Assembly: GCF_000959525.1 (NCBI RefSeq)
Contig: NZ_CP009832.1
Location: 1,054,001 to 1,118,000, forward strand
Direction: 5' to 3'
Source of the DNA: Burkholderia multivorans ATCC BAA-247
Lineage (GTDB): Bacteria; Pseudomonadota; Gammaproteobacteria; Burkholderiales; Burkholderiaceae
Length of the DNA: 64,000 nucleotides
Positions within the stretch are counted from its first letter, which is position 1. Every line of letters starts with the position of its first letter. The notes under the pieces are model-generated. The model saw only the letters and a program-made list of their open reading frames with translations, had not been told where the DNA came from and made no database searches. Below, piece after piece: positions 28,937-41,588 of the stretch. Made by a program: the position numbers and the translations under genes.

Positions 28937-30032
28937 TGTGTGATTCATAGACATCGTTTCAACTAAAATGAAGCGATGGACCGAGAGACCGCCGCGCGAT
29001 TGCGTTGGGTGCGCATGTATCACGAGACGGGCAATGCTGGCCTCGTGTGCGCACGGTGCGGCATATCTCGGCCGACACTTCGCAAATGGCTACGTCGCTA
29101 TCAGGAGGCTGGCGAAGCGGGTCTCCAGTCTCAAAGCCGTCGTCCATTGCGCAGCCCAAACCGGAAGGTCTCCGAGGCTGATCGGGCGACGGTCCTCCGA
29201 TTACGCGCTGAGCGCAAAGGCGCACGGCGGATCCAGAATGAACTGCGACTGCACGAGCAACGAGAGCTATCCCTCGCGACCATTCACAAGGTCTTGAGCG
29301 AGGCGGGTGTAAAGCCGTTGGTTCGATCTAGGCGACCGACGCAGCCAAAACGCTATAGCCGGCCGGTGCCTGGAGACCGCGTCCAGATGGACACGATGAA
29401 AATCGCTCGAGGTGCGTACCAGTACACGGCGATCGACGACTGTTCGCGATTCCGGGTACTGGCGATCTACCCACGCAGAAATGCCCGAAATACGCTGCTT
29501 TTTCTTGATCGCGTCATTGAGGAGATGCCGTTCCCGATTCAGCGTATCCAGACCGACCGAGGCGGTGAGTTCTTCGCCGAGTCAGTGCAGCGGCGCTTGA
29601 TGAGCGAGTGCATCAAATTCCGACCGATTCCGCCCCGTTCGCCACACCTCAACGGCAAGGTCGAGCGTTCACAGCTCACCGACCTCAACGAATTCTGGTC
29701 GGATCATCCACCGACCGGGGATGCGATCGACCAACGAATTGAGGAGTGGCAGTTCAACTATAACTGGCGGCGCCCGCACGGCTCACTTGGTGGCAAAACG
29801 CCCATCGATCGTATCGCGGAGTTAAGCGAAATTACGCCTCTCGCGGAGGAGGTGGAAAGTGCCTACGACGAAACGAAAGAACGAATTCGCCACCGTGAAT
29901 GGCGCGTCGACAAGACCCTCGCCGAACATCACCGGCGCGTGGTGGAGCTCGCGTCTCCTAACGGAGCCTCGAGCTCCACCACGGAACGAAAAAGGCGCAC
30001 CAAGAAGTGAAACGATGTCCGTGAATCGCACA
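28937..30032 (+). mobile_element. IS481-family insertion sequence
   Basis: 1,096 bp with about 28-bp imperfect inverted ends: TGTGTGATTCATAGACATCG at 28937 and, from 30032 on the other strand, TGTGCGATTCACGGACATCG. Contains one intact transposase gene. No clear target duplication was found (AAAC on the left, CATG on the right). Confidence 0.85.
28976..30010 (+). CDS. IS481-family transposase
   Basis: 344 aa, single reading frame. The N-terminal helix-turn-helix (GLVCARCGISRPTLRKWLRR) is followed by a second one (RKGARRIQNELRLHEQRELS) and the rve catalytic core: Asp in GDRVQMDTMKI and IDDCSRFRVL, second Asp in RIQTDRGGEFFAE, Glu in HLNGKVERSQLTDL, then FNYNWRRPHGSLGGKTP. The C-terminal basic tail is longer than usual. 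It appears intact. Confidence 0.92.
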   Translation: MDRETAARLRWVRMYHETGNAGLVCARCGISRPTLRKWLRRYQEAGEAGLQSQSRRPLRSPNRKVSEADRATVLRLRAERKGARRIQNELRLHEQRELSLATIHKVLSEAGVKPLVRSRRPTQPKRYSRPVPGDRVQMDTMKIARGAYQYTAIDDCSRFRVLAIYPRRNARNTLLFLDRVIEEMPFPIQRIQTDRGGEFFAESVQRRLMSECIKFRPIPPRSPHLNGKVERSQLTDLNEFWSDHPPTGDAIDQRIEEWQFNYNWRRPHGSLGGKTPIDRIAELSEITPLAEEVESAYDETKERIRHREWRVDKTLAEHHRRVVELASPNGASSSTTERKRRTKK

Positions 30033-30209
30033 CATGAGGCGCAGGTGCGGTTGTTAGGCACAGGCGTCTCGGGGTTCATCTACAACCGACAGTTACCGCG
30101 TCGCGGGCTCGGCAAACCGTTCGATCTGACGCATCCCCGATGGGCAAATCGGGAATGGGCACCAGCATGGGAAGATGATCCCGATCCCGAGTGGAATGGC
30201 CACAAGTAA
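30033..30209 (+). pseudogene. C-terminal gene remnant after the IS481 element
   Basis: An open stretch directly after the IS end encodes about 58 residues (RLLGTGVSGFIYNRQLPRRG, then LTHPRWANREWAPAWEDDPD) ending at TAA 30207-30209. The composition is protein-like and unlike the IS. It may be the missing end of the effector gene at 28357 or of another disrupted gene. A hairpin with U-tract follows at 30224-30255, as expected at a true gene end. Confidence 0.4.
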
Positions 30210-30223
30210 TCGGATGCCGGCTT

Positions 30224-30255
30224 CCGGGATCCTCGGCCTCGAGAATCCCGGTTTT
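30224..30255 (+). terminator. Rho-independent terminator
   Basis: CCGGGAT, 14-nt loop, ATCCCGG, then TTTT. It closes the remnant gene ending at 30209 and separates it from the satellite integrase, which is transcribed toward it from the other side. Confidence 0.55.
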
Positions 30256-30324
30256 GTACGCCTTTAATAAGACATGGAAAGTGCCCTAAATTCGGAGCAC
30301 GTTGAGGGCGGCACACCCCACGAT

Positions 30325-31473
30325 TCATGCGGGATTGAGCAGTAGCGAGTCGATGACTTTTACGGCCTTCCGGCTCGCGTCGTTCGGGCTGAGGTGCGCG
30401 TAACGCTGCGTCATCTTCGGATCGCTGTGACCGAGCAGCACCGACACCTCATAGAGACTGACGCCCGCTTTGACCAGCTTGCTCGCGAACGTATGACGGA
30501 GCGTGTGCAGCGTAACGCGCCCGCCGCGTTCTTTGACGAGAGTGGGATCATTTAGTCCGGCGCGCTCAATTGCCTTCTTGATCGACTTCGTGCTGTAGCC
30601 GCGTTCATTGCCCGTGCGGTCTTCGAAGACGTATCGCTGCCCAGTCCGGCGTTCTTCCCACCGACGACGTAGGATCGCTTCGAGTCGCGATGTCATGTGC
30701 AGCACATCCTCGTTCCGAACCTTGCTCCGATAGAGGCTGATCGTGCTGGCGTCGATGTTGATCGCCGACCACGGAATATTCGCGACCTCCGAGTAGCGAC
30801 ATCCCGTATCGAGCAGGAAAACCGTGATGTCGTAGTTATCCTGCATATTCCGCGTCATTTCGGGTGTTAGCGGTTTAGACGCGTTTATACGCGCTCTAAG
30901 CCGTTCCGGATCGAGTTCGCGCAATAACGCCGACTCGTCGTTAGAATCCAGATATCGAAGCCTATACGAAGTCCTAAGCTCGGGAAAAACGATATCTCGA
31001 CTGACTTTGAAGCCGAGCTTTGCCATCTCGTTGATGGTCGCGCGTAGCAATCCGATCTCGTGCTTGATCGTCGCGGGCTTGTCGCCTTCGGCCTTGCGCT
31101 TCGCGACGAGAAGATCGAAATCGCGCGTCGTCAGTTCATGCAGCAGCGTATCAGGCGACATGCCATAGCAGGGGAGCTTGGCCTTCGTCCGCGGATGAAG
31201 TTTATAGCCGAGCGTCTTCCGAACGATCGAGCACATGTTCCGGTGATAGGAAGTTTCGCTCCGTGCTTCGACATACTGTTCCAGCGCATTCTTGAGCGAG
31301 ATGGGCTGCGCATCCCCGAGGTACTGCTCGGCGTGCGCGCGATTGCGCATCTCGCGTTCGACTTGAGCGGCCTTCGTCTTGTTCGGCGTGCCGGTGGAGC
31401 CGAAGAATTTCTTGCCCTGAATCTGAAACTGGTAGTACCAGTTCTTGCTGTTGTTTCGACGGATGAGTGTCAT
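30325..31473 (-). CDS. int: Tyrosine site-specific integrase (satellite/phage type)
   Basis: 382 aa. An AP2-like/arm-binding N-terminus (NSKNWYYQFQIQGKKFFGST) is followed by a core-binding domain and the catalytic domain with Arg in LLDTGCRYSEVANIPW (about 233), HTLRHTFASKLVKAGVSLYE (about 328) and the Tyr in MTQRYAHLSPND (about 364). Codon use and GC are lower than in core genes. It lies directly downstream of the P4-like primase gene on the same strand, as in P4-type satellites and phage islands. It is a candidate for the integrase that placed the island or its right-hand part. Confidence 0.9.
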   Translation of the reverse strand: MTLIRRNNSKNWYYQFQIQGKKFFGSTGTPNKTKAAQVEREMRNRAHAEQYLGDAQPISLKNALEQYVEARSETSYHRNMCSIVRKTLGYKLHPRTKAKLPCYGMSPDTLLHELTTRDFDLLVAKRKAEGDKPATIKHEIGLLRATINEMAKLGFKVSRDIVFPELRTSYRLRYLDSNDESALLRELDPERLRARINASKPLTPEMTRNMQDNYDITVFLLDTGCRYSEVANIPWSAINIDASTISLYRSKVRNEDVLHMTSRLEAILRRRWEERRTGQRYVFEDRTGNERGYSTKSIKKAIERAGLNDPTLVKERGGRVTLHTLRHTFASKLVKAGVSLYEVSVLLGHSDPKMTQRYAHLSPNDASRKAVKVIDSLLLNPA

Positions 31474-31615
31474 GTGTTGCTCCTAATGGAATGTAATTGA
31501 TGAGCAACACCATCCGGGCTGATATGGGGTATGACAACAGCTTTCGCCCATGCCAGATGCAAAAAACGGAGCGTGCGCGAGCACGATCCGTTCGGGAGAA
31601 ATCACTTACGACGGG

Positions 31616-33886
31616 TTATGCGGCGAGGGGTTCACCCTCGTTGTCATCGGGGCCTACATCTTCGCCGGTCATGCCCGCGAGCAGCTTGCTTTGCCAGTCG
31701 CGCTTCCGCAGCTCAAGTTCGTAGTCGTAGAACTCATGGCCGACGTAGGCTCCCGTGTTCTCGTTGAACTGGAGGTCAACGAGCAGCGTCAAACCCTGAT
31801 AGACGCGATGAGGCCTAGCAACGGGCTTGTACCCCTTATCCTGCAAAATCATTCCGAGCCGTTTGCGGGAGTAGGAGAAATTGTATTCTGCCTCGCTCCA
31901 CGCCTTGAAGAACTTATAGGCGTCACCGAAGTGGATCTCGCCATCGGGATCGTCGCGGGTGAATTCCGACAGCCAGCTTTCGACAACGTCCATTTCGCCA
32001 CGGTATTCGGACACCTCATTCGTGATGATCGCCGGCTCCTTAAGCTTGTAGCCGTTATCGCGCCACTGCTGGCAGCCAACAAGCGCCCAGTTCAGGATAC
32101 CCGGGAGTTCATCACGCAGCTTGCGTTCAAGGTCGGGGTCACGTTTCTCGGGCGGAATCGTAACCGTGAACGGGATCAGCTTCATGCGACGCCAGATGCC
32201 GTGATCGTTGCCCTTGATCGTTGGCTTGTAGTTTCCGGCGAGCCAGAGCTTGAAGCGAGGCGTGAACGAGAACGCATTCTGGTAGAGCATGCGAGCGACA
32301 ATGTCTTCGCCGCCCGTATACCACTTCACCGTTTTCTCGCTGAAATGGCGTCCCTCTTCGACCTCGCTCATAGCGACGAGACGTTTCCCGACGAGGCGTG
32401 CGACTTCACTGCTTGAGGCATTCGAGGACATAGCTTGCCCGCCGTTCTTGTCGAGCAACATGTCGCCGTTCGCCTGTGCTCCGAGATCTCCGAAGAGAGC
32501 CCGCAGCAAATTGAGAAAGGTCGACTTCCCGTTTGCCCCGCTGCCGAAGGCAAAGAACAGGGCATGTTCCGAGGTTTGACAGGTCAGCGTATACCCGATG
32601 GCGCGGCGCAGGTACTCCACAAGCTCGACGTTCCCGTTCATGATTTCCAGCAGGAAGGCTTCCCACCGCGGGCAGGTTGCATCCGGATCGAAGTTCACCC
32701 CCGCAGTCTGCGTGATGTGCAGCGCGGGGTCCATCGGCATGAACTTGCCGGTCCGCAAATCAACGAGGCCGTTCTTCGCGGGGAACATCCATTCCCCTTC
32801 ATCGAGGTTGCTGGCCGAGACGGCGATGCCGGGTTCGGACCTGAACAGTTCGACGGCATCCTTGAGCGCCTTATTGCTTTCGCTGTACTTCGCGTGATCC
32901 ATCAGTTCACGGCGATTGCCTGGATTAAGGCGGCGAATCTCGTCGTGGATCATCGGAATGATTTCGCGGGCGAGCAGCAGCACGCGAAGTTCATCGATGA
33001 AACGCCAGGCACCGGACGGGGATTTTTCGAGCCAGCGCTTCATCTCCGAAACGTACCGGAGTGTGTCGCTGTACAGTTCTGACATCCGTTTCGCATTGCC
33101 GAGATCGGTTGCACGAGAGACGCTATCGTTGTTCTTCTGGTGCGAGCTAGCCACGTTCGCGGCAATCTGGGATACCTCCGATTCAGACAGTGGCGGGTCG
33201 CAATTTGTGGCGTTGTACTCCAGCAGTTCCTCCTCCAGCAGGTCGGGGTTCAAACCTGCATTGAGCAAAGAGAACCCCTCGAACGCGACAGATTCGTTGC
33301 GATTCCCGATGGTAGCGGATTTCGATTTGGCGGATTTCCGCTTGCGCGGTTTCGTGCCTTGCGTCGAGCAGAGCAGTTCAAGCAACCACGCAGGGGCACG
33401 AGAGATCGGCAGTACGGGTTCGTCGTAAAAATAGGGCTCGTCGTTGATGATCGACGGGGGAGCGAGACAGTAACCGCCTTCCGCTTTCACATCGACGCGA
33501 GGCAGGAAGTTGATCCTGCTCGGGACCTTCAGGTTCTCTGGATACCTGTAGATGAGGTGATACCCACCCGATGGCGTAAACACTTTGCGAGTTGGCGGAA
33601 GTGGGCCATGTTCTTTCTCCAGCCGACTGATCGACTTGAGGCCGGTGGCATCCCCGTTCTTCACATCGACATCGACAACGAGCACATATCCGGACGCCGG
33701 TCCGGTCGCGTACGCAACGTTGTAGTCGGCGCATTCATTCGCCCATGCGCGATGCTTGTCGGGGTCCATGTTCGCGTCCTTGAATCCGTGCTGCGTGGCG
33801 GGAACCTTATCGTTCAGGCGGATAGGAAGCGGGGCGAGACCTTCGGCTGCGAGGTCAGAGTATTTTTTGACGTGGTCTATATTCAT
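31616..33886 (-). CDS. P4-like primase-helicase (Prim-Pol + SF3 helicase)
   Basis: 756 aa from ATG 33886 (MNIDHVKKYSDLAAEGLAPL). The N-terminal bifunctional primase/polymerase domain shows the metal-binding VLVVDVDVKNGDATG and SGGYHLIYRY. A D5-type N-terminal helicase domain follows (FAKNGLVDLRTGK-like, TAGVNFDPDATCPRWEAFL), then the SF3 helicase with Walker A FAFGSGANGKSTFLNLLRAL and downstream RLVGKRLVAMSEVEEGRHF. The product would start and unwind replication of a satellite or plasmid-like element. It is full length and undamaged, so the element may still replicate when excised. Confidence 0.9.
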   Translation of the reverse strand: MNIDHVKKYSDLAAEGLAPLPIRLNDKVPATQHGFKDANMDPDKHRAWANECADYNVAYATGPASGYVLVVDVDVKNGDATGLKSISRLEKEHGPLPPTRKVFTPSGGYHLIYRYPENLKVPSRINFLPRVDVKAEGGYCLAPPSIINDEPYFYDEPVLPISRAPAWLLELLCSTQGTKPRKRKSAKSKSATIGNRNESVAFEGFSLLNAGLNPDLLEEELLEYNATNCDPPLSESEVSQIAANVASSHQKNNDSVSRATDLGNAKRMSELYSDTLRYVSEMKRWLEKSPSGAWRFIDELRVLLLAREIIPMIHDEIRRLNPGNRRELMDHAKYSESNKALKDAVELFRSEPGIAVSASNLDEGEWMFPAKNGLVDLRTGKFMPMDPALHITQTAGVNFDPDATCPRWEAFLLEIMNGNVELVEYLRRAIGYTLTCQTSEHALFFAFGSGANGKSTFLNLLRALFGDLGAQANGDMLLDKNGGQAMSSNASSSEVARLVGKRLVAMSEVEEGRHFSEKTVKWYTGGEDIVARMLYQNAFSFTPRFKLWLAGNYKPTIKGNDHGIWRRMKLIPFTVTIPPEKRDPDLERKLRDELPGILNWALVGCQQWRDNGYKLKEPAIITNEVSEYRGEMDVVESWLSEFTRDDPDGEIHFGDAYKFFKAWSEAEYNFSYSRKRLGMILQDKGYKPVARPHRVYQGLTLLVDLQFNENTGAYVGHEFYDYELELRKRDWQSKLLAGMTGEDVGPDDNEGEPLAA

Positions 33887-34018
33887 AGTTAGGAATGCAA
33901 AAAAGATGGCCGGGAAATGGTGCGAGTACCATCTTCCGGCCACGAGTCAACGTTGGTTGAGAGTTATTTGCCCGGGAGCAGGCAGGTCAGATATGTCGTT
34001 GTTAGGCGGTCTCAGGAG

Positions 34019-34378
34019 TTAGGCATGCGTCATTGCTTCCTTATCGACAGGCAAGTCGTAAGGCATGCCAAGGTCGGTTGTCGTGCAAACGGCGTTGCAT
34101 TCGTTGCAGACGAAGCCATACGGTTTCCCGTTCATCCCGATGATGGGAGTTGGGCTATGCGTAATCGGGTACCTGGGGCAGTGAATATAGTCCCCGATCT
34201 TAAGGCTGGAGAGGGGCTGCGGCGCGTCGTGTGAGTTGATCGGCCGAACGGGGTACTCGGGAGGCAGATCGCATACCCAATCCTCGGGGCCAATCCATTT
34301 CAGGAGGCCCTCTTGCATAAACAGGCTTACGATTTCCATAGGATCACTAACATAAGTGGTGTTGTGGTCGTTGTTCAT
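34019..34378 (-). CDS. Hypothetical protein with a Cys-pair knuckle
   Basis: 119 aa, 132 bp upstream of the primase gene and on the same strand. A C-terminal zinc-knuckle-like stretch (PYGFVCNECNAVC, plus CPRYPITH earlier) could bind zinc; the rest has no recognised fold. It probably belongs to the satellite replication operon. A purine-rich AAAGGAAATTTC precedes the ATG. Confidence 0.55.
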   Translation of the reverse strand: MNNDHNTTYVSDPMEIVSLFMQEGLLKWIGPEDWVCDLPPEYPVRPINSHDAPQPLSSLKIGDYIHCPRYPITHSPTPIIGMNGKPYGFVCNECNAVCTTTDLGMPYDLPVDKEAMTHA

Positions 34379-35421
34379 GAAATTTCCTTTTAAAGATGGT
34401 TGCCAAGCCGTTCACGCTGAACGTTGCCGGATCGAAATCGGAAGGCGAGGGTGTGCCTCGTCGCACGTTGCTTCGTTGCCGAGTGACTGTGCAGGAATTC
34501 GATGGACCTGACTTTACGGAGGCGGAGGGCGTTACACAAGACGAACAACTGCCAAACGCATCTGGGTGAAGTATGAGTCTGCGAAATCCAGAAAATCGAA
34601 TGCGCGGGCTAGAAGGTAGTTACAAATCGACGAGGTTGGGGAAGAGGGGGCGCAATATTTGTAACAGGCCTTCTCGGCTCGTTTGGCGCGTCGGAGATGC
34701 ACGTTTTCGGTCAAGGCACCCCTCAGGACTCGGGTGTGCGTTTTTCGTCGCGGCAAACTCGGGTAAACACCTATAAAAGGCTGGATTGTTGTCGCTTTTT
34801 TGCGTCAATCTAGTATAAACCCGTATTTTTCCGACTCGGGCATTCCTGGATCGGCCGGAGTCATCGCAAGAATTTCGACGGGGCTTGCGCAGGTCATGCT
34901 CGGAACAGGCGGCGAGCACACAAATCTATCTCTTCAACTTATGCAGCTTTCGTGGGCGTGCGGCCATGCCCTCGGCCCTTTGCTCGGCGCGCGAGCAACA
35001 ACATCACCAAACGATTCAACGATTTCATCAATTTTCAGAAAATTTTCTCTATCTCTTCTTCTATATAAAAACTTTCTAAAAACAAGAAAATTGTTTAATC
35101 GTTTAAAGAGCGGTTCCCTTCTGTTGGATGTGAAAGAAATCTCATCCCCACAACAGGGGGGGGGCGGTCGGCGATGGCGAGCACGCGGATTGGCCGGGAT
35201 GGCCCTACGGCAGAATCCTAGAAAGCTGATGATCTAGCTCGGAAATTCCCGGTAGATCAAGGGGATAGAGGAGATGCGGGTGAGGGTGACGTGAAAACTG
35301 TCGCTGTTGCTCGACGGATTTCGCGATGGTCGCCGTCGTGTCGATCACAGGCGCGCTCGACGTTGCCCTGAAGGGCAGTCTGCCGGACCCTGGACGCACT
35401 TTCAACGAACGGAGTGCTGTC
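34379..35421. other. Satellite leader region with AT-rich segment, possible origin
   Basis: 1.04 kb without a secure gene. From about 35020 to 35110 it is strongly AT-rich, includes the 12-bp palindrome AGAAAATTTTCT (35039-35050) and repeated AACGATT words, and could be the melting region of a replication origin for the adjacent primase. A + frame at 34800-35237 (GLAQVMLGTGGEHTNLSLQL, GPLLGARATTS) resembles the short Icd/Ash-type leader frames of P4-like elements but starts with TTG and may not be translated. A G8 run occurs near 35157. Confidence 0.35.
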
Positions 35422-35730
35422 ATGGTCGACCAGAAGCAAGGTGCAACGAGCAAGGACGAGAAAGCGGGGAAGCCGGTTGCTGCTGACCAAAAGCCGGTGA
35501 TTCCCGCAACCAGTTCGACGGGAAATGATCCCGCAGTGAAGGCGGCACCGGCTACGCCGACGAAGATGGAGTTGGCGACGGAAATCTACAAACGGATGCG
35601 GACCGTCAAGGACGTGACCCGGAAGGACATCATCGAGAAGTTCATCGCCGAGGTGAAGCTGACGAAAGCCGGCGCGAGCACCTACTACCAGATGATCAAG
35701 GACAAGCACGAGCCGATGGGCAAGAAGTAA
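35422..35730 (+). CDS. Small basic island protein
   Basis: 102 aa from ATG 35422, preceded by CGGAGTG. The first half is a Lys/Ala/Pro-rich linker; the second half (about 50-102) is a compact helical domain (TPTKMELATEIYKRMRTVKD, DIIEKFIAEVKLTKAGASTY) ending in KHEPMGKK. It looks like a small DNA- or RNA-binding protein of phage-like islands, but I cannot name it. A hairpin GGCTCC-TACG-GGAGCC follows at 35761-35776. Confidence 0.6.
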   Translation: MVDQKQGATSKDEKAGKPVAADQKPVIPATSSTGNDPAVKAAPATPTKMELATEIYKRMRTVKDVTRKDIIEKFIAEVKLTKAGASTYYQMIKDKHEPMGKK

Positions 35731-35760
35731 CTGTCGGCGCTGTGCTGATTCTGCCGAGAT

Positions 35761-35776
35761 GGCTCCTACGGGAGCC
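35761..35776 (+). terminator. Short hairpin, possible terminator
   Basis: GGCTCC, loop TACG, GGAGCC followed by TCTTA, 31 bp after the stop of the 102-aa gene. The U-tract is weak. Confidence 0.35.
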
Positions 35777-35814
35777 TCTTATGAGCCGAGTGGCTGGCCT
35801 CGGATAGATTGCCG

Positions 35815-36387
35815 CTAATGTGGGGGGGGAATGATGGTGCCGTAGTCGTCCGGAGTGATCTTGCTCGGAAATGATATGGACTTCTGGGCAGCTTCAATTC
35901 GCTCTGCAGCACGTCGTTTTGCTGCATTTAATACCAGTTCCTCCCGTAGCTTATGCAGGCTCAAAACTCCACCGAACAGACCAGCAAATTTCACGACGAC
36001 GAACGTTATCGACGCGGATAGAAGTAGGCTGACAGCTGGTGCGAAATTAATCGTTCGCCCAGATTGTAATGAGATTGTGGTTCGATCCTTCAAAACGCTC
36101 GCTATCACAACCAGCGCAAATGCGACAATTGCGCTTGCTAGAAGCCCAAGCCAATAGTGCTGCTGATTGCGCAATCCTTTGGAAAGACGCTCGGCCTCAT
36201 TGGGGGTTAGATCGTCGGATTGCAAGAAATTGGCAGTAACCGGGATCACTTGAATTAGGGCAGCGGCGATCAGCCCGAGAAACGCAAGTAGCCCCTGGTT
36301 CATATCGATCCAAAGGCCGAGCGGCACCCACTGCCAACCTATAGCGGCAGCAATCAGGGGCAACAATAATCCCGCCGCCCATTTCAT
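35815..36387 (-). CDS. Four-helix membrane protein, second gene of a two-gene module
   Basis: 190 aa from ATG 36387 (MKWAAGLLLPLIAAAIGWQW), one base after the stop of its upstream partner, so tightly coupled. Four hydrophobic segments: about 3-25, 32-55, 84-106 and 122-148. A charged cytosolic loop (LTPNEAERLSKGLRNQQ) lies between the second and third, and a basic, helical C-terminal tail (LREELVLNAAKRRAAERIEA) ends with a Pro-rich tip. No known family is recognised. As a small membrane partner of a cytosolic protein on a phage-like island it fits the pattern of an effector that damages or depolarises the membrane (inference). Confidence 0.6.
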   Translation of the reverse strand: MKWAAGLLLPLIAAAIGWQWVPLGLWIDMNQGLLAFLGLIAAALIQVIPVTANFLQSDDLTPNEAERLSKGLRNQQHYWLGLLASAIVAFALVVIASVLKDRTTISLQSGRTINFAPAVSLLLSASITFVVVKFAGLFGGVLSLHKLREELVLNAAKRRAAERIEAAQKSISFPSKITPDDYGTIIPPPH

Positions 36388-36388
36388 G

Positions 36389-37462
36389 TCAGGTGCCCGG
36401 GTCGTCCGATATCTTGCCGTTGTTGTACATGACGTTGTACGCCTCGTACATAGCTCGCAAGACATCTGTAGGGTCAAGCAGCGAACCGACCTTCACGTTA
36501 TCTCCCACGCCAGCTTTGATCAACTGCACGGATGCGTTGTGGTGCAGCCGTACACTACCGTCTGATGATTTACTCATGCCACGCGCCTTCACTTGTAACT
36601 GGCTGTCCGGAAGATTGCGAAGCCCAGTTTCAAGTTGGCGCAGGCCAGCTCGGCTGACAGAACGCTTGCGCGTCTTGTAGCCGATATGCACTTCGACGCG
36701 CAAGTCCGCATCCGGTGGCACGGATTGCATGACCTTATCGACGTTGGCATCGCCTCCCAGCAACGTTTTGAGAATATCCCAGGCTTGTGCCCACCCAGTG
36801 GTGCGTGCGGTGCCAACTTCCCCGTGCTGGGTGATTTCCCGTTCCTGCGGTGCTGGTGGTGTATCGGATTCCTCTGCGCGGTGTGCTGGCGCGGCTACAC
36901 CGCCGACAACAATCTCTTGAATGTCGTTCAAATCTCCGCCCACCAATTGCTCGTCGAATCGCGCAGCGAGCACGATTTGAGGGGCAGGTTGTGGAAGTGT
37001 CGCGGTCAGTTCGCTGAGGAGCCACGCTAAGTAAGATTCCAGTTCCTCCGTTCTCAACGACATGCTCTGGATGACGAAGACATGATCGCCTTTGATCATC
37101 CAAAACATCTCGGAATGCACGTACTCTGTCAGCGACGGAGCTGGCATCTGCTGGACGGGCGCAACCGCGACATCAGTTTGAGCAACGGTGAAGAGAGCTT
37201 GTAGATGCCCCTTCGTAAAATGAATCACGTCCCCAAAAACGAGGGGCGTTTCATCCGCAGCTCGGTCGTAGAATGTATTCACAAAGTAGTTGTCTTCGCC
37301 CAGAGCCCTGACACGGGTTCTAAAGCGATCCCGGACTCGATGGCCGTCAACATTCGCCTCCATTGCTGCGCGAACGTGTTGTTCCAGCGTGCCCGCAGGA
37401 AATCCGCCGTTCCTGTCGAGCTTCCGATAGTGAATCGTTACCTGCTTTCGTTCCCCGGCCAT
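36389..37462 (-). CDS. Unrecognised cytosolic protein, first gene of a two-gene module
   Basis: 357 aa from ATG 37462 (MAGERKQVTIHYRKL), chosen for the GAGGGA ribosome site 5 bp upstream. No signal peptide or membrane helix. Two probable domains: residues about 1-190, ending in FWMIKGDHVFVIQSMSLRTE and LESYLAWLLSELTATL, and residues about 235-345 with beta-rich DADLRVEVHIGYKTRKRSVS and a Lys/Gly-rich GMSKSSDGSVRLHHN stretch. A low-complexity linker with PPAPQ joins them. I do not recognise the family. A LexA-type box lies 64 bp upstream. Together with the membrane gene it resembles the sensor-plus-membrane-effector layout of two-gene defence systems such as Kiwa, without visible homology to it. 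Confidence 0.6.
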   Translation of the reverse strand: MAGERKQVTIHYRKLDRNGGFPAGTLEQHVRAAMEANVDGHRVRDRFRTRVRALGEDNYFVNTFYDRAADETPLVFGDVIHFTKGHLQALFTVAQTDVAVAPVQQMPAPSLTEYVHSEMFWMIKGDHVFVIQSMSLRTEELESYLAWLLSELTATLPQPAPQIVLAARFDEQLVGGDLNDIQEIVVGGVAAPAHRAEESDTPPAPQEREITQHGEVGTARTTGWAQAWDILKTLLGGDANVDKVMQSVPPDADLRVEVHIGYKTRKRSVSRAGLRQLETGLRNLPDSQLQVKARGMSKSSDGSVRLHHNASVQLIKAGVGDNVKVGSLLDPTDVLRAMYEAYNVMYNNGKISDDPGT

Positions 37463-37525
37463 TGGTCCCTCATGCACGTTCTTTTTGTGGTGACGGAATG
37501 ATAGCGCGTCAACCATCACAAAGTG

Positions 37526-37541
37526 CTGTATGTTTGTACAG
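37526..37541. promoter_or_regulatory. LexA-type operator candidate upstream of the two-gene module
   Basis: CTGTATGTTTGTACAG fits CTGT-N8-ACAG with an AT-rich middle and a 3' flank of TA. It is 64 bp upstream of the ATG at 37462 on the minus strand, overlapping a weak TTGCCT...TACAGC promoter. It also lies upstream of the reverse-transcriptase leader on the + strand. Confidence 0.5.
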
Positions 37542-37692
37542 TATAGCAGGCAATCGATGGCGTACCGAGAATTGGGCAAATTCACTTGGAATTCGTATGT
37601 TGCCTCACGCGATCGCGTGACGGAGATAGACGAGGAAGCCGTCCAGTTGTTGTTGCTGATGACCCTATCCGGCACAATAGCTTCGTTCGGTA

Positions 37693-37839
37693 GCGCCCAC
37701 GGGCATCTCTGCGGGTTGCGCTGCACGTTACCAATCGGCCGTCTGGCGCCCATGCGAGCGATCGCGTGTGCGTGACCGGCGGAATCAGGGGCGGGTCCGA
37801 ATCGCAAGATGCGGTCCGCAACGAGGATGCCGAAGGGGC
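37693..37839 (+). repeat. ~147-bp direct repeat, copy 1 (RT-distal)
   Basis: Nearly identical to 38095-38240, about 400 bp downstream. Copy 1 keeps the hairpin 37791-37819 (CCG-A-ATC, loop GCAA, GAT-G-CGG) but has a changed 3' arm for the first stem (GCCGTCTGG against GCAACCTGC), so it would fold less completely. The stretches 37463-37692 and 37840-38094 around it hold no convincing gene. Confidence 0.8.
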
Positions 37840-38094
37840 GACCGGGTCGCTTTCTGTCCCTAGAGCTGTTGGGAAGGCGATTAACAAACGTGTGGGGCAT
37901 CCCCGAGGCAGGGAGGCGGGCGCGCCGGCAACGTCGCGGCGCATGTCTTCAAAACACCGCCCTCGTTGCGCCGGCCGGAAGCTGGTCGGCGCGGCCCTGG
38001 CCGCCATCGCTTGCATCACCGGAATCAAAACCAGCGTAATGGAGGTGGGAATGAGAAGCATTTGCATCGAGGCGGCCGCTTCGGTCGAAGTGCT

Positions 38095-38240
38095 GCGCCC
38101 ACGGGCATCTCTGCGGGTTGCGCTGCACGTTACCAATCGGCAACCTGCGCCCATGCGAGCGATCGCGTGTGCGTGACCGGCGGAATCAGCGGCGGGTCCG
38201 AATCGAAAGATGCGGTCCGCAACGAGGATGCCGAAGGGGC
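38095..38240 (+). ncRNA. Structured repeat copy 2, candidate ncRNA of the reverse transcriptase
   Basis: Ends 52 bp before the reverse-transcriptase start. It folds into a 9-bp stem (GCGGGTTGC at 38113-38121 with GCAACCTGC at 38140-38148, one G-U pair), a bulged stem around CATGCGAGCG-AT-CGCGTGTGCGTG, and a hairpin at 38192-38220 with GAAA loop. The same last hairpin in copy 1 has GCAA, so the GNRA loop class is kept. It may be the cognate RNA of the reverse transcriptase or, alternatively, part of a P4-type immunity leader. No promoter is assigned. Confidence 0.45.
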
Positions 38241-38292
38241 TTTCAGCCGCTGGTCTAGGGAGGATGTTCAACGCCAGCGAAGCACCTGAGAT

Positions 38293-39489
38293 ATGGCTAG
38301 AAACGCGTACCATACTGCCCTGTCACTTGATGCCCTACGCGCGGCGTGGGGCATTCTATTTAAGAAATCTTCACCTCGATCCCACAATACTACGGGCGTC
38401 GATGACATCTCCATCAACGACTTTCGTGCTGACGAAAAGGCTCGTCTCAATCGATTGGCTCGCGATTTGCACCGCAAGGCGTTCCAGTTTTCCGATCTTC
38501 GACCACACCTCATTCCGAAGTCTTCAGGAAAGGATCGGTTGATCTGCGTTCCGACGGTCCAAGATCGCATTGTGCAGCGAGCGCTTTTGAATTTCCTTTC
38601 GGATCGCTACGCAGATCGACTTGCTAACAAGATCAGCTATGGCTTCGTGACGAATCGTGGGGTGAAGAAGGCTGTTCACGACGCTTGTGAGATTCGAGCG
38701 AAGTATGGATGGGTCTACAAGACAGATATCGCGTCTTTTTTTGATTCCATTGGTCGGTTGCATCTTGAGCGAGCGCTGAAGGCTGTCATCCGAGAGCGCT
38801 CCCTCCATCCGCTGCTGGTGCAGGCAATTGGTTGCGAGATTTCCGCGACGAAGGGGAGCGTTGCGAAGAGGATTAATCGACTCGGCATTAAAGCCGGGCG
38901 AGGCGTGCGACAGGGAATGCCGCTATCCCCATTCTTTTCCAACATCATGCTGGCTGGGTTTGACCGCGCGATTGCGCAGCAGGGTCTTCGTGCGGTCAGG
39001 TATGCAGACGACTTGATTTTCTTTGCCTCATCTCGCGGTGAGTGTGAGGGCGTGGCTGAATTCTGCGCGCATCATCTTGCCCCGATCGGATTGACTGTAC
39101 CACCGGTTGAGCCCGGTTCGAAGTCAGTGATATACGAACCCGATCAGGCTGCCGAATTTCTTGGCGTGAGCTTGGTTCGCCACCAGTCAAGCTACCGACT
39201 TGAACTGACGCAAGAGCAAATCGTAGCGATTCGCGATGACTTGCTTAAGCTTGGCTCGGTACAAGAACTCGTGACACGAGGGATAGCGCTACCAAAGCTG
39301 GGCCACACGCTTATGCTGAGGCGAAACGGATATCTGGCAGCTTACGACATGTGCCACAACGTTGAAGATCTGGGGCGCGAGTTGGATAAGTTGGAGCAGC
39401 GGGTGCTCCGCAGGATCTACAGCGAGGGGCTCGGAATCGAACTAGCCAAGTTGCCGCCGGTGGCTCGCAATTTTTTGGGGCTGAGCTGA
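38293..39489 (+). CDS. Stand-alone reverse transcriptase (defence-type candidate)
   Basis: 398 aa. The RT fingers/palm are complete: HLIPKSSGKDRLICVPTVQD with RIVQRALLNFL (about 72-102), catalytic Asp145 in VYKTDIASFFDSIGR, GRGVRQGMPLSPFFSNIML (about 203-220), RYADDLIFFA with Asp239/Asp240, and the downstream FLGVSLVRHQS. After about residue 300 only a ~95-residue helical thumb remains; there is no maturase or HNH domain. The retron NAxxH and VTG marks and the diversity-generating SQ motif are absent. The general form matches stand-alone unknown-group reverse transcriptases, several of which are anti-phage systems with an upstream ncRNA. It is the last gene before the island end. Confidence 0.85.
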   Translation: MARNAYHTALSLDALRAAWGILFKKSSPRSHNTTGVDDISINDFRADEKARLNRLARDLHRKAFQFSDLRPHLIPKSSGKDRLICVPTVQDRIVQRALLNFLSDRYADRLANKISYGFVTNRGVKKAVHDACEIRAKYGWVYKTDIASFFDSIGRLHLERALKAVIRERSLHPLLVQAIGCEISATKGSVAKRINRLGIKAGRGVRQGMPLSPFFSNIMLAGFDRAIAQQGLRAVRYADDLIFFASSRGECEGVAEFCAHHLAPIGLTVPPVEPGSKSVIYEPDQAAEFLGVSLVRHQSSYRLELTQEQIVAIRDDLLKLGSVQELVTRGIALPKLGHTLMLRRNGYLAAYDMCHNVEDLGRELDKLEQRVLRRIYSEGLGIELAKLPPVARNFLGLS

Positions 39490-39710
39490 ATTTGCGATCC
39501 GACGATCGGTGGCGGCCCGTGTTTCTGATTCGATGTCGCCGGTGAGTTGATGCAATATACGATCGCTATATCGTCAGCTTCTTGCTATTGGCGCTGGCGT
39601 GAAAACTGGCATCGCCGTGAACCCAGCATGAACAGTGGAGCTGCGTGGGGCCGGCAAAAAGCCCGACGTGAGAACGCGCACGATTAGTGGTTCTTATTAA
39701 CGCGCCGGGG
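39490..39710. other. Island end, no gene seen
   Basis: 221 bp between the reverse-transcriptase stop and the partial tRNA. Contains an inverted repeat around CGATCGCTATATCGTC but no gene or terminator that I can support. Confidence 0.4.
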
Positions 39711-39749
39711 CTTGGGAAGCTGAGGTAATGGCCATTATACGACGCCCGC
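39711..39749 (-). repeat. Partial tRNA-Gly copy (5' half), island right boundary
   Basis: 39 bases identical to 10142-10180, the 5' half of tRNA-Gly(CCC) from its first base to the anticodon loop. The next 21 bases (39750-39770) also resemble the bases upstream of the full gene (17 of 21 match, ending GATTCTACAGGG). The copy stops exactly in the anticodon loop, a standard crossover point of tyrosine integrases. It is therefore the probable original chromosomal 5' half, separated from its 3' half by the island. Confidence 0.85.
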
Positions 39750-39929
39750 GGAATTGACGATTCTACAGGGAAACGCCGCCGCAAGGCAAGCGCGGACGGG
39801 GCGCACGCACCGCCCGACATCCGAACGTCCAGCGCGCGGCAACCGTGAAGGTGGCCGATTGCAAATGATTCGAATCGCATAGCGCACTGGATCGCGTTTA
39901 TCCTCGCGCGTTGCCCGTTCCCGAATCGC

Positions 39930-40240
39930 GACGCGCTCCGCCGCTCGATTCGCGCACGCCGAAATCACCGCGTTCTGCGATTGCGGATGCAACGGTTTCA
40001 AGTCGAGCATCGCGTCGCGCCGCCATGGCCCAGGGAGCGCGTTGGAGGCCGACTTCATCGACCGCGATTCACCGGCCGAATCGCAAGCGGTCGAAGCCGT
40101 ATTGTGCGGCGATGTTTCCGGGGCATCCCGGTTACGTCGAGCTCGATTTCTTCGGAAACGGACTACCGGATCCCGAGCATCTGAACCTGAAGCCGTCGCC
40201 GTATCGCGTGTTCGAAAGCGATCGATTGCTGCGAAATTGA
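39930..40240 (+). pseudogene. Decayed chromosomal gene with a frameshift
   Basis: Two partly overlapping frames read as one protein if a frameshift near 40115 is allowed. The first encodes EITAFCDCGCNGFKSSI and LEADFIDRDSPAESQAVEAV; the second continues HPGYVELDFFGNGLPDPEHL to LLRN and a stop at 40238-40240. The CDCGCN segment followed by an acidic beta-rich part looks like a small conserved Burkholderia protein. The loss may date from island insertion next door. Confidence 0.5.
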
Positions 40241-40268
40241 AACGATGCGCTCGTCATTGCCGTCGTCG

Positions 40269-40808
40269 TCACACGCCGACCAACCGCAACCCGACCAGCG
40301 CCGCGGCCCCCGCCGCAATCAGCAGCAGCGCATGCACACGCGTATACATCACGCACAGCGTCGACGCGACCGCAATCGCACGTGCCGGCCAGCCGCCGTC
40401 GAGCGCCTGCAGCAGCACCCACACCGAAGCGGCGATCATCCCCGCCGCCACCGGCCGCAGCCCCGCTTCGAGTGCGATCTGCCAGCGCGCGCCCTGATGT
40501 CGCCGCCATAGCCGCGCGATGCCGTAGATCAGAAACGCGGTCGGCCCGAATAACGCGAGCGTCGCGATCACCGCGCCCCAGAAGCCGGCGACCTGCCAGC
40601 CGATCAGCGTCGCGAGCAGCGAGCCGGGGCCGGGCGCCATTCGCGCGATCGCGAAGTCGTTGACGAATTGCGCGGCCGTCATCCAGTGATGCACGTCGAC
40701 GATCTGCCGCTGAATGTCGGCGACGATCGCCTGCCCGCCGCCGATCGTCGCGATCGACAGCGGCGCGAACACGCCGAACAGCGCGGCGTAGCGCGACGCG
40801 GCCGTCAT
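40269..40808 (-). CDS. chrA: Chromate transporter, C-terminal-type half (short-chain CHR)
   Basis: 179 aa from ATG 40808, overlapping the stop of the partner gene (ATGA). About five or six membrane segments. The CHR signature PLSIATIGGGQAIVADIQRQ at about residue 15 and DFAIARMAPGPGSLLATLIG at about 50 are typical. Short-chain CHR proteins work as pairs with opposite membrane topology and export chromate. The last residues (LVGLRLVGV) end in a membrane segment. Confidence 0.85.
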   Translation of the reverse strand: MTAASRYAALFGVFAPLSIATIGGGQAIVADIQRQIVDVHHWMTAAQFVNDFAIARMAPGPGSLLATLIGWQVAGFWGAVIATLALFGPTAFLIYGIARLWRRHQGARWQIALEAGLRPVAAGMIAASVWVLLQALDGGWPARAIAVASTLCVMYTRVHALLLIAAGAAALVGLRLVGV

Positions 40809-41416
40809 CGGTCGCCGCTTCCTTGCGCGCGCGCGCCTGCTGCGCGGCGGTATTCGAATGCGACGCTGAGCGCACCGCCGATCAGCACGGTCCACACGAG
40901 CGGCCAGTGCAGCACGGCGACCGAGACGAAGGTGGCTGCCGCCACCGCGAGCGGCAGCACGCCGCGCGGCAGGCGGCGCACCGCGGTGATCGCCATCGAC
41001 ACCGACAGCCCGATCGCGGCGGCCGCCGCGCCGGCAAGCGCGACGTGCGTGAGCGGAAAGCGCGTCAGCGTCGAGAACGCGACGCCGAACAGCACGATCA
41101 GCACGGCGGGCGGCACGATGATTCCGATAAAGCCGGCCAGTGCGCCGCGCCATCCGGCAAGCCGGTAGCCGATCCAGATCGCGAGGTTCTTCACGTTCAC
41201 GCCCGGCAGCGCCTGCGACAGTGCAAGACCGTTGAGGAACGCTTCTTCGTCGAGCCAGCGCCGTTCGTGCACGAAGTCGCGCATGATGCGGCCGCTCAAG
41301 CCGCCGCCGAAGCTCGTCAGGCCGATCTGGGCGAACGCGACAAACAGCGCGGCGACGCCGGGGCGCGGTGCGCGATCGTCAGGCTCGGCGGAAGAAGATG
41401 AAGGGGGCGGCGGCAT
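40805..41416 (-). CDS. chrA: Chromate transporter, N-terminal-type half (short-chain CHR)
   Basis: 203 aa. CHR signature near the start: FAQIGLTSFGGGLSGRIMRD, then FLNGLALSQALPGVNVKNLA with the family's LPGP-like turn replaced by LPGVN, followed by hydrophobic helices (FIGIIVPPAVLIVLFGVAF). A Pro/Ser-rich leader of about 20 residues precedes the first helix. Translationally coupled to the second half. Some CHR pairs may transport sulfate or other oxyanions. Confidence 0.85.
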   Translation of the reverse strand: MPPPPSSSSAEPDDRAPRPGVAALFVAFAQIGLTSFGGGLSGRIMRDFVHERRWLDEEAFLNGLALSQALPGVNVKNLAIWIGYRLAGWRGALAGFIGIIVPPAVLIVLFGVAFSTLTRFPLTHVALAGAAAAAIGLSVSMAITAVRRLPRGVLPLAVAAATFVSVAVLHWPLVWTVLIGGALSVAFEYRRAAGARAQGSGDR

Positions 41417-41588
41417 CGGTTCGACGGAATCGGGCGGTTCGCGGGGCGGTCATGTTAGCAAGCGGCGGCTGTCGGGATGCTGACATCGATTCGTCATGCG
41501 CGTCATCGTGCGTCGCGGCGTCCGAACCGGCGTATGATCGCGACGCGCGCTCGCGCAACGTCCGTCATCCGTCCGCCGCTTCATCATC

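Follow-up and report, generated by a model that had tools for sequence, protein, structure and literature searches.

What does a stand-alone reverse transcriptase (RT) make from the structured leader that precedes its gene? The question is raised by an RT of Burkholderia multivorans ATCC BAA-247, encoded in a stretch of 64,000 nucleotides (contig NZ_CP009832.1, positions 1,054,001 to 1,118,000) which is called the window hereafter. An earlier, sequence-only reading had described a single repeat of 146 nt ending 52 bp before the RT start codon, which is correct (38095-38240), and had proposed a new or divergent immune system composed of the RT and a non-coding RNA (ncRNA). Comparison with related loci revealed that the conserved feature is not this lone repeat but a pair, whose first copy A is separated from the second copy A' by a segment B (Table 1). 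At the level of sequence, an RT family, a repeat pair, an in-frame spacing of its copies, a stop-free unit without codon-level constraint, conserved RNA helices and a hydrophobic stretch characterise the system. Three of these features, the pair, the in-frame spacing and the stop-free unit, had been missed before, and they point to a specific mechanism: the RT probably copies the leader repeatedly into in-frame tandem DNA encoding an endless membrane protein, most likely in response to phages.

The first 47 nt of A' are identical to those of A and are followed by a substitution cluster with a net deletion of one nucleotide. A 28-nt core of the repeat (up to three mismatches) occurs twice in the window, compared to a mean of 0.00 in 100 shuffles. 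Two copies of the window repeat, about 400 nt apart, were also found upstream of RTs which are only 47-52% identical to that of the window (L029, L030, L031 and L033; L numbers denote loci, G numbers genomes). Altogether, 30 of 35 family loci possess a repeat pair, 27 of the 31 loci of the first set, analysed by self-comparison, and three of four later ones (L115, L117, L118 and L119). L116, whose leader extends over just 207 nt, and L120, which carries the unit of L014, were not counted, and L032, L043, L051 and L053 had too little leader for the repeat test. The copies are 94-150 nt long and 94-100% identical inside one locus, while no leader similarity between the window and more distant loci was detectable by blastn. 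Copies that are alike within a locus and unlike between distant loci bear the signature of concerted evolution. The distance from the end of A' to the RT start codon (as called) is about 46-67 nt and to the start of the BLAST match 46-115 nt, the exception being L014, whose annotated RT is devoid of its N-terminal part. Immediately 5' of A, the motif GTAGC (37690-37694) is kept in 11 aligned leaders of beta, Nevskia and Acinetobacter origin.

The unit, defined as the sequence from the start of A to the start of A', measures 339-453 nt over the 30 loci, for example 408 nt in L030 (Janthinobacterium sp. GW456P) and 402 nt in L031 (Nitrosovibrio sp. Nv4). In all but two, L042 (395 nt) and L118 (452 nt), its length is a multiple of three (28 of 30). 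Taking the first locus of each cluster, divisibility was found in 19 of 19 cases (p 8.6e-10); two clusters are mixed. Read as a circle, 27 of the 28 divisible units are free of stop codons in one plus-strand frame. The unit of the window, A plus B, comprises 402 nt and is open on the plus strand with codons counted from 37694. For the first 26 units, dinucleotide shuffles predicted 2.0 open plus-strand frames and 25 were observed; this test needs a length divisible by three, and L042, one of the 30 loci, is outside the 26. A fresh test was provided by a second scan of viral contigs, made after the rule had been found, which yielded three loci with enough leader. The units of L115 (453 nt) and L117 (381 nt) are open, the other plus-strand frames of L115 containing 14 and 9 stops, and that of L118 is not; the RT frame of L118 is itself broken by a stop after 58 residues.

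An ordinary coding gene within the unit was rejected as there is no codon-position bias. Substitutions in six pairs of units are spread evenly over the three positions (177, 159 and 195; the pair L013/L014 has 49 gapped columns), whereas those in the RT genes (eight pairs) are concentrated at third positions. This difference indicates that the frame is kept open while the amino-acid sequence can drift freely. In the window and in L027, L020 and L019, A' with its net 1-nt deletion runs into a genomic stop codon and A stays open. Thus, an endless product would need the first part of A' to be joined to the rest of A, as by a template jump.

A hydrophobic stretch of 17 residues is present in the endless frame of all 25 stop-free units first tested (mean Kyte-Doolittle values 1.59-2.96). 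It begins 24-171 nt before A', and in 23 of the 25 units the endless frame is the most hydrophobic of the three plus-strand frames. Within B of the window, a candidate Shine-Dalgarno (SD) sequence precedes an ATG in the endless frame; the frame from this ATG (38051) stops in the genome at 38174-38176 and yields 41 amino acids without a hydrophobic stretch. Similar SD-ATG combinations were seen by eye in some relatives only, and no conserved start was found upstream of A. A consensus scan of the window detected no promoter. Generally, the counts of consensus promoters and terminators were near shuffle level, save in L049 with three terminator-like sites against a shuffle mean of 0.3.

The leaders share a conserved RNA structure, as the sequence-only reading had anticipated for close homologues. 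In an alignment of 12 leaders, 97.1% of the cells of six helices are paired and 11 pairs are changed on both sides, which none of 500 shuffles reached. Slid versions of the structure pair 33-53%, a comparison favouring the true register since the structure was drawn from the same alignment. The best-supported helix is the 3' hairpin, which follows A' and precedes the RT gene. Because A and A' are identical in their 5' core, the anti-A segment of B is complementary to both, and it could switch partners during the jump; its helices are mostly invariant and hence show weak covariation. Rfam gave no match on the leader (E up to 1) and no intron RNA either in the window or in the 22 family loci scanned in full. 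As the leaders are structured and intron RNA was not found, neither of the two sequence-level outcomes named beforehand as contrary to an RT/ncRNA system, group II intron embedding of the homologues and upstream regions without common structure, materialised.

The RT is intact and bears the catalytic residues at the positions read from the sequence alone (D145, Q207-G208, Y237-A-D-D240). Among 28 aligned RTs, that of the window included, D145, Q207, G208, Y237, D239 and D240 are invariant and A238 is nearly so. Its sole Pfam match at E<=0.01 is RVT_1 (93 bits), without any match to maturase, HNH, integrase, endonuclease, RNase H or other domains, which agrees with the earlier description. In a tree, the RT and its relatives (27-94% identity) form a supported clade apart from the other RTs sampled. 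L014, L011, L042, L050 and L019r were left out of this tree; L055-L106 (52 loci, 23 of them in the tree) were treated as other RTs, except L057, which groups within the family, and the partial match L091, left unplaced. No PADLOC DRT/UG model was matched end to end. The top-scoring DRT model was UG17, the RT group of DRT10, with 135.5 bits over positions 25-281 of 429, while a genuine UG17 member scores 511 bits over the full length (1-429); UG17 membership was rejected on these grounds. The Drt2 model was matched partially with 38.3 bits (curated cut-off 390), and identity to the DRT2 structure 9c0i is 14%. Also below their cut-offs were group_II_RT_mat (168.8 bits, cut-off 300), retron_St85_RT (74.6 bits, cut-off 235) and Ec67 (43.3 bits, cut-off 450). 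Since the RT fails the Drt2 and UG17 models, the system is filed as a member of neither DRT2 nor DRT10. The nearest fold is that of G2L4, G2L reference sequences not being contained in the tree; the Foldseek/VIA rows held no DRT nearer than DRT2 and DRT9, an absence which proves nothing. With an RT outside the PADLOC models and a conserved leader structure, the proposal of a new or divergent RT-ncRNA immune system is partly supported, though its single-repeat view missed the pair.

Leader and RT probably constitute a two-part gene-writing system. The transcript would begin near A and carry A-B-A' plus the 3' hairpin. Bound to it, the RT would start near A' and copy the 5' part of A', then B and then A. 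At the 5' end of the RNA, the new DNA end, a copy of A, could re-pair with the identical start of A', so that copying would go on. Such a jump would resemble the realignment of telomerase or DRT10 or retroviral R-repeat transfer, but over tens of bases. The predicted product is a tandem array of units of 339-453 nt, which would then undergo second-strand synthesis, transcription and translation. Since the units are multiples of three and stop-free on the plus strand, a translated array would give an endless protein with one hydrophobic stretch per repeat, probably damaging the membrane and arresting growth. The trigger would most likely be a phage, and by analogy, and judging from neighbouring genes, defence is the likely purpose. 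The differences between A and A' lie mainly in one cluster of 2-3 nt (37740-37746 versus 38142-38147). In 10 aligned beta, Nevskia and Acinetobacter loci it follows CGGC, where A' always begins with adenine and A often with C or T; this cluster may be the point at which copying starts.

Table 1. Features of the RT cassette in the window and defence-type neighbours of the RT at related loci
Feature	Position	Strand	Basis or remark
Cassette 5' edge, presumed promoter (by eye)	37649..37692	+	start of the block shared with L019, L020, L027
Repeat copy A, 147 nt; template RNA presumed to start here	37693..37839	+	self-comparison
Segment B between the copies	37840..38094	+	self-comparison
Hairpin at B start, 37846-37855 with 37872-37881	37846..37881	+	99.2% of cells paired, 2 pairs changed on both sides
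Anti-A segment of B; complement of the 5' cores of A' (38108-38130) and A	37888..37914	+	helices 3 and 4: 98.5% and 98.6% paired
Hydrophobic stretch in the endless frame (LVGAALAAIACITGIKT)	37981..38031	+	mean Kyte-Doolittle value 1.81 for the 17 residues; p 0.070 against shuffles
Candidate ribosome-binding site GGAGG (38041-38045) and ATG (38051), endless frame	38041..38053	+	
Repeat copy A', 146 nt	38095..38240	+	self-comparison; ends 52 nt before the RT ATG
3' hairpin between A' and RT gene, 38248-38254 with 38273-38279	38248..38279	+	5/7 pairs changed on both sides, 12 sequences
Reverse transcriptase gene, 398 aa, group II-like fold	38293..39489	+	ORF, profile, alignment, tree and fold comparison
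Neighbour of L010: AbiEi-like, 48 nt downstream of RT	L010 9219-9950		PADLOC, 97.6 bits
Neighbour of L012: Type ISP restriction			
Neighbour of L029: TIR			
Neighbour of L036: Mrr nuclease			
Neighbour of L031: putAbiC			weak
Neighbour of L030: AAA/AbiEii-like			

A number of observations weigh against the proposed writing of an endless gene. No comparable pair was detected in L037, L044 and L012, L044 offering no more than a 67.5% match at a distance of 846 nt, where an upstream gene lies, nor in L119, where an Acinetobacter replicon carries a partial RT. Compared with its near twin L054, L052 has lost one unit (about 422 nt), and its RT frame is still open. Since L052 demonstrates that deletion between the copies happens, the pair is presumably kept by selection; as a natural unit loss, this locus is usable as a negative control. 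The unit of L038 contains one stop, that of its near twin L048 none, and in L042 the unit is out of frame though the RT frame is open (406 aa). The minus strand is open in 9 of 26 units versus 2.8 expected, at a GC content of 0.56-0.66. For the GC-rich window unit alone, the chance of an open plus-strand frame is 0.25, so that the weight of the openness lies in the family; moreover, the loci are related, and thus 30 loci are not 30 independent tests. In no more than 11 of the 25 units does the hydrophobic stretch exceed shuffled versions of its residues (p<0.05), and it is weak in the later locus L115 (1.35). No promoters above shuffle level were found inside the unit. The neo frame of DRT2 resides on the reverse complement of the ncRNA, whereas the present frame occupies the presumed RNA (RT-sense) strand. 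Finally, cDNA synthesis, translation and phage defence are inferred from sequence.

It is conceivable that the tandem-repeat DNA acts directly as effector or signal, in the manner of DRT10 or DRT9, and that its open frame is not translated. The A-B-A' layout recalls the DRT10 template, UG17 is the best-scoring PADLOC DRT model, and the anti-A pairing in B could serve realignment here as well. This explanation leaves the divisibility (28/30), the stop-free plus-strand frames (27/28) and the hydrophobic stretch unaccounted for, SLATT is unmatched in 10 neighbouring proteins of nine loci, and the idea is held to be unlikely. DNA recombination between A and A', which long near-identical direct repeats invite and of which the missing unit of L052 relative to L054 is suggestive, might excise a 402-bp circle encoding the endless frame and make cDNA dispensable. 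However, recombination would need no RT, while the leader is structured and the catalytic residues are invariant in the 28 aligned RTs; this route appears quite improbable.

Slightly less probable still is a conventional small membrane-peptide gene in B-A', the 3' part of which was duplicated upstream, with the RT being a separate matter. The candidate SD-ATG in B, the short genomic open reading frame (ORF) extending into A' and the hydrophobic stretches would fit such a gene, but codon-position bias is absent, the upstream copy A would require neither an open frame nor in-frame spacing, a conserved start upstream of A is missing and the 41-aa peptide of the window has no hydrophobic stretch. 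A diversity-generating retroelement, or some other template-to-target copying by which one repeat is overwritten from the other, is very improbable. The differences between the copies consist mostly of one cluster of 2-3 nt and a few scattered changes, are not adenine-specific and are zero in several loci, and a target protein gene bearing a copy was not seen in the leaders; the diversity-generating reading was rejected because adenine-directed copy differences were not found. The least credible proposal is a selfish retroelement with LTR-like repeats (LTR, long terminal repeat), whose leader and RT serve their own spread. The edges of the shared block (37649 and 10-13 nt before the last base of the RT stop codon) and the copies on plasmids and viral contigs would suit it, while the single copy per genome (own genome, G059 and G041), an RT without integrase or endonuclease domain and the stop-free frame, which it leaves unexplained, contradict it.

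The RT family is rare. Close relatives of the RT were found in four of 65 genomes of the same genus, the own genome, G059 (94%), G041 (92%) and G035, in which the RT gene is split into three separate pieces; in the first three, the RT is single-copy. G020 and G048 matched at 30% identity only. An order-wide search of 399 genomes (E<=1e-60) returned the own genome as the sole match, and the first scan of viral contigs found no relative. Copies of the cassette exist on plasmids and viral contigs as well. The block common to the window, L019, L020 and L027 (about 93%) ends at 39476-39479, and L020 and L027 have further island segments in common with the window. That the repeat is merely a dispersed Burkholderia element was rejected, as a 34-nt core (up to three mismatches) occurs only in the three of 65 genomes with an intact cassette, in two copies each. 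Weaker, mostly partial matches exist in seven other genomes of the genus (best 12 candidates per genome scored). Sequences 74-97% like parts of the repeat (L022-L026) occur in other Burkholderia genomes away from such RTs, e.g. beside an acetate-kinase-like gene (by eye).

The location of the RT at an integration boundary, as suggested by the sequence-only reading, was corroborated in part. A tyrosine integrase and a Prim-Pol/D5-type primase-helicase at 30325-33943 on the minus strand (Pfam) form the core of a satellite-like integrative element, with the RT cassette on its far side. The segment 39559-39770 recurs in L019, L020 (two places), L021 and L027 and is perhaps an integration hot spot used by several elements. 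By contrast, convincing att-like direct repeats were not found in 29800-41500, and no flanking direct repeats were found around 39559-39770. Divergent from the RT leader, two genes (35815-36477 and 36389-37465, both on the minus strand) possibly represent a separate cargo system. The product of the former has 220 aa with several hydrophobic stretches (by eye), that of the latter about 358 aa (start by eye) and matches phrog_3482 (135 bits; function unknown in phrog); neither has a Pfam or PADLOC match.

A defence-type neighbour was detected in 6 of 11 loci scanned (Table 1), which were not randomly chosen and for which there is no background rate; the scanned neighbours of L034, L037, L038, L045 and L049 are not of this type. 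The Acinetobacter plasmids L010 and L011 both encode a similar protein 48 nt after the RT (L011 9219-9938; the PADLOC scan was made on the L010 copy). A constant protein partner of the RT was rejected, since the neighbour varies from locus to locus. SLATT had no match in the 10 neighbouring proteins of nine loci (Pfam), the neighbours of L010, L011 and L012 or the two window genes upstream. C4 antisense RNA (Rfam RF01695), which is known from P4/P1-type phages, is present in 4 of 22 family loci (L034 4966-5053, L036 8205-8296, L039 12113-12201, L013 6827-6911), a hint of satellite or prophage surroundings. The contig L050, binned as a Heimdallarchaeota metagenome-assembled genome, is near-identical to Acinetobacter L049 (units differ at 7/384 sites) and probably a binning contaminant.

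How does the family relate to known systems? In retroviral and LTR strand transfer, direct repeats at both template ends (R) let the growing DNA jump. The leader resembles this arrangement in its direct repeats at the template ends; unlike retroviral elements, it is associated with no integrase or RNase H match and no sign of mobility, and the spacing of its copies is kept in frame. G2L4 and group II intron RTs (9d4s, 6ar3) differ in that no intron RNA or maturase match was found here and in that the clade stands apart from the other RTs sampled. In DRT2, ncRNA units of 111-129 nt are divisible by three and have one stop-free frame (neo), and toxicity grows with repeat number (PMC12039810, PMC11100668). 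Shared with DRT2 are a stand-alone RT with an upstream ncRNA, divisible units with a stop-free frame across them, little codon-level constraint, hydrophobic bias and the lack of a constant partner gene; the units of 339-453 nt and repeats of 94-150 nt differ from those short units and from the short ACA motifs of DRT2. DRT10 is composed of an RT, a SLATT protein and an ncRNA, and for Eco3 DRT10, A-B-A' realignment and a tandem unit of 9 nt are reported (PMC12632851). The A-B-A' pattern is common to both, but the units here are far longer than 9 nt and open for translation, and SLATT is unmatched in the neighbours scanned. The family combines the logic of DRT2 and DRT10 with a different RT. No RT that joins long paired repeats to an in-frame unit is named in the RT literature covered, most subscription papers lying outside it, so that absence is unproven (PMC12632851, PMC12039810, PMC11100668, PMC12483538, PMC8934634, PMC4244168, PMC13174585, PMC13213688). 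In the literature found, DRT2 is the sole system whose RT assembles a gene present nowhere in the genome.

On balance, though by a modest degree, we favour the view that the family is a second, independently built case of endless-gene writing, in which a non-Drt2, group II-like RT, long LTR-like repeats and an anti-repeat RNA switch would generate in-frame tandem DNA whose RNA-sense strand encodes a repetitive transmembrane toxin. If this is true, bacteria evolved RNA-templated gene creation two times or more, and a second family that shares the in-frame, stop-free signature but differs in RT lineage and template design would turn it into a recurring strategy. Paired repeats, a spacing divisible by three and an open cyclic frame would then provide a simple sequence test for more hidden genes. 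The family would also offer a natural model of long-homology template jumping, situated between telomerase-like and retroviral strand transfer.
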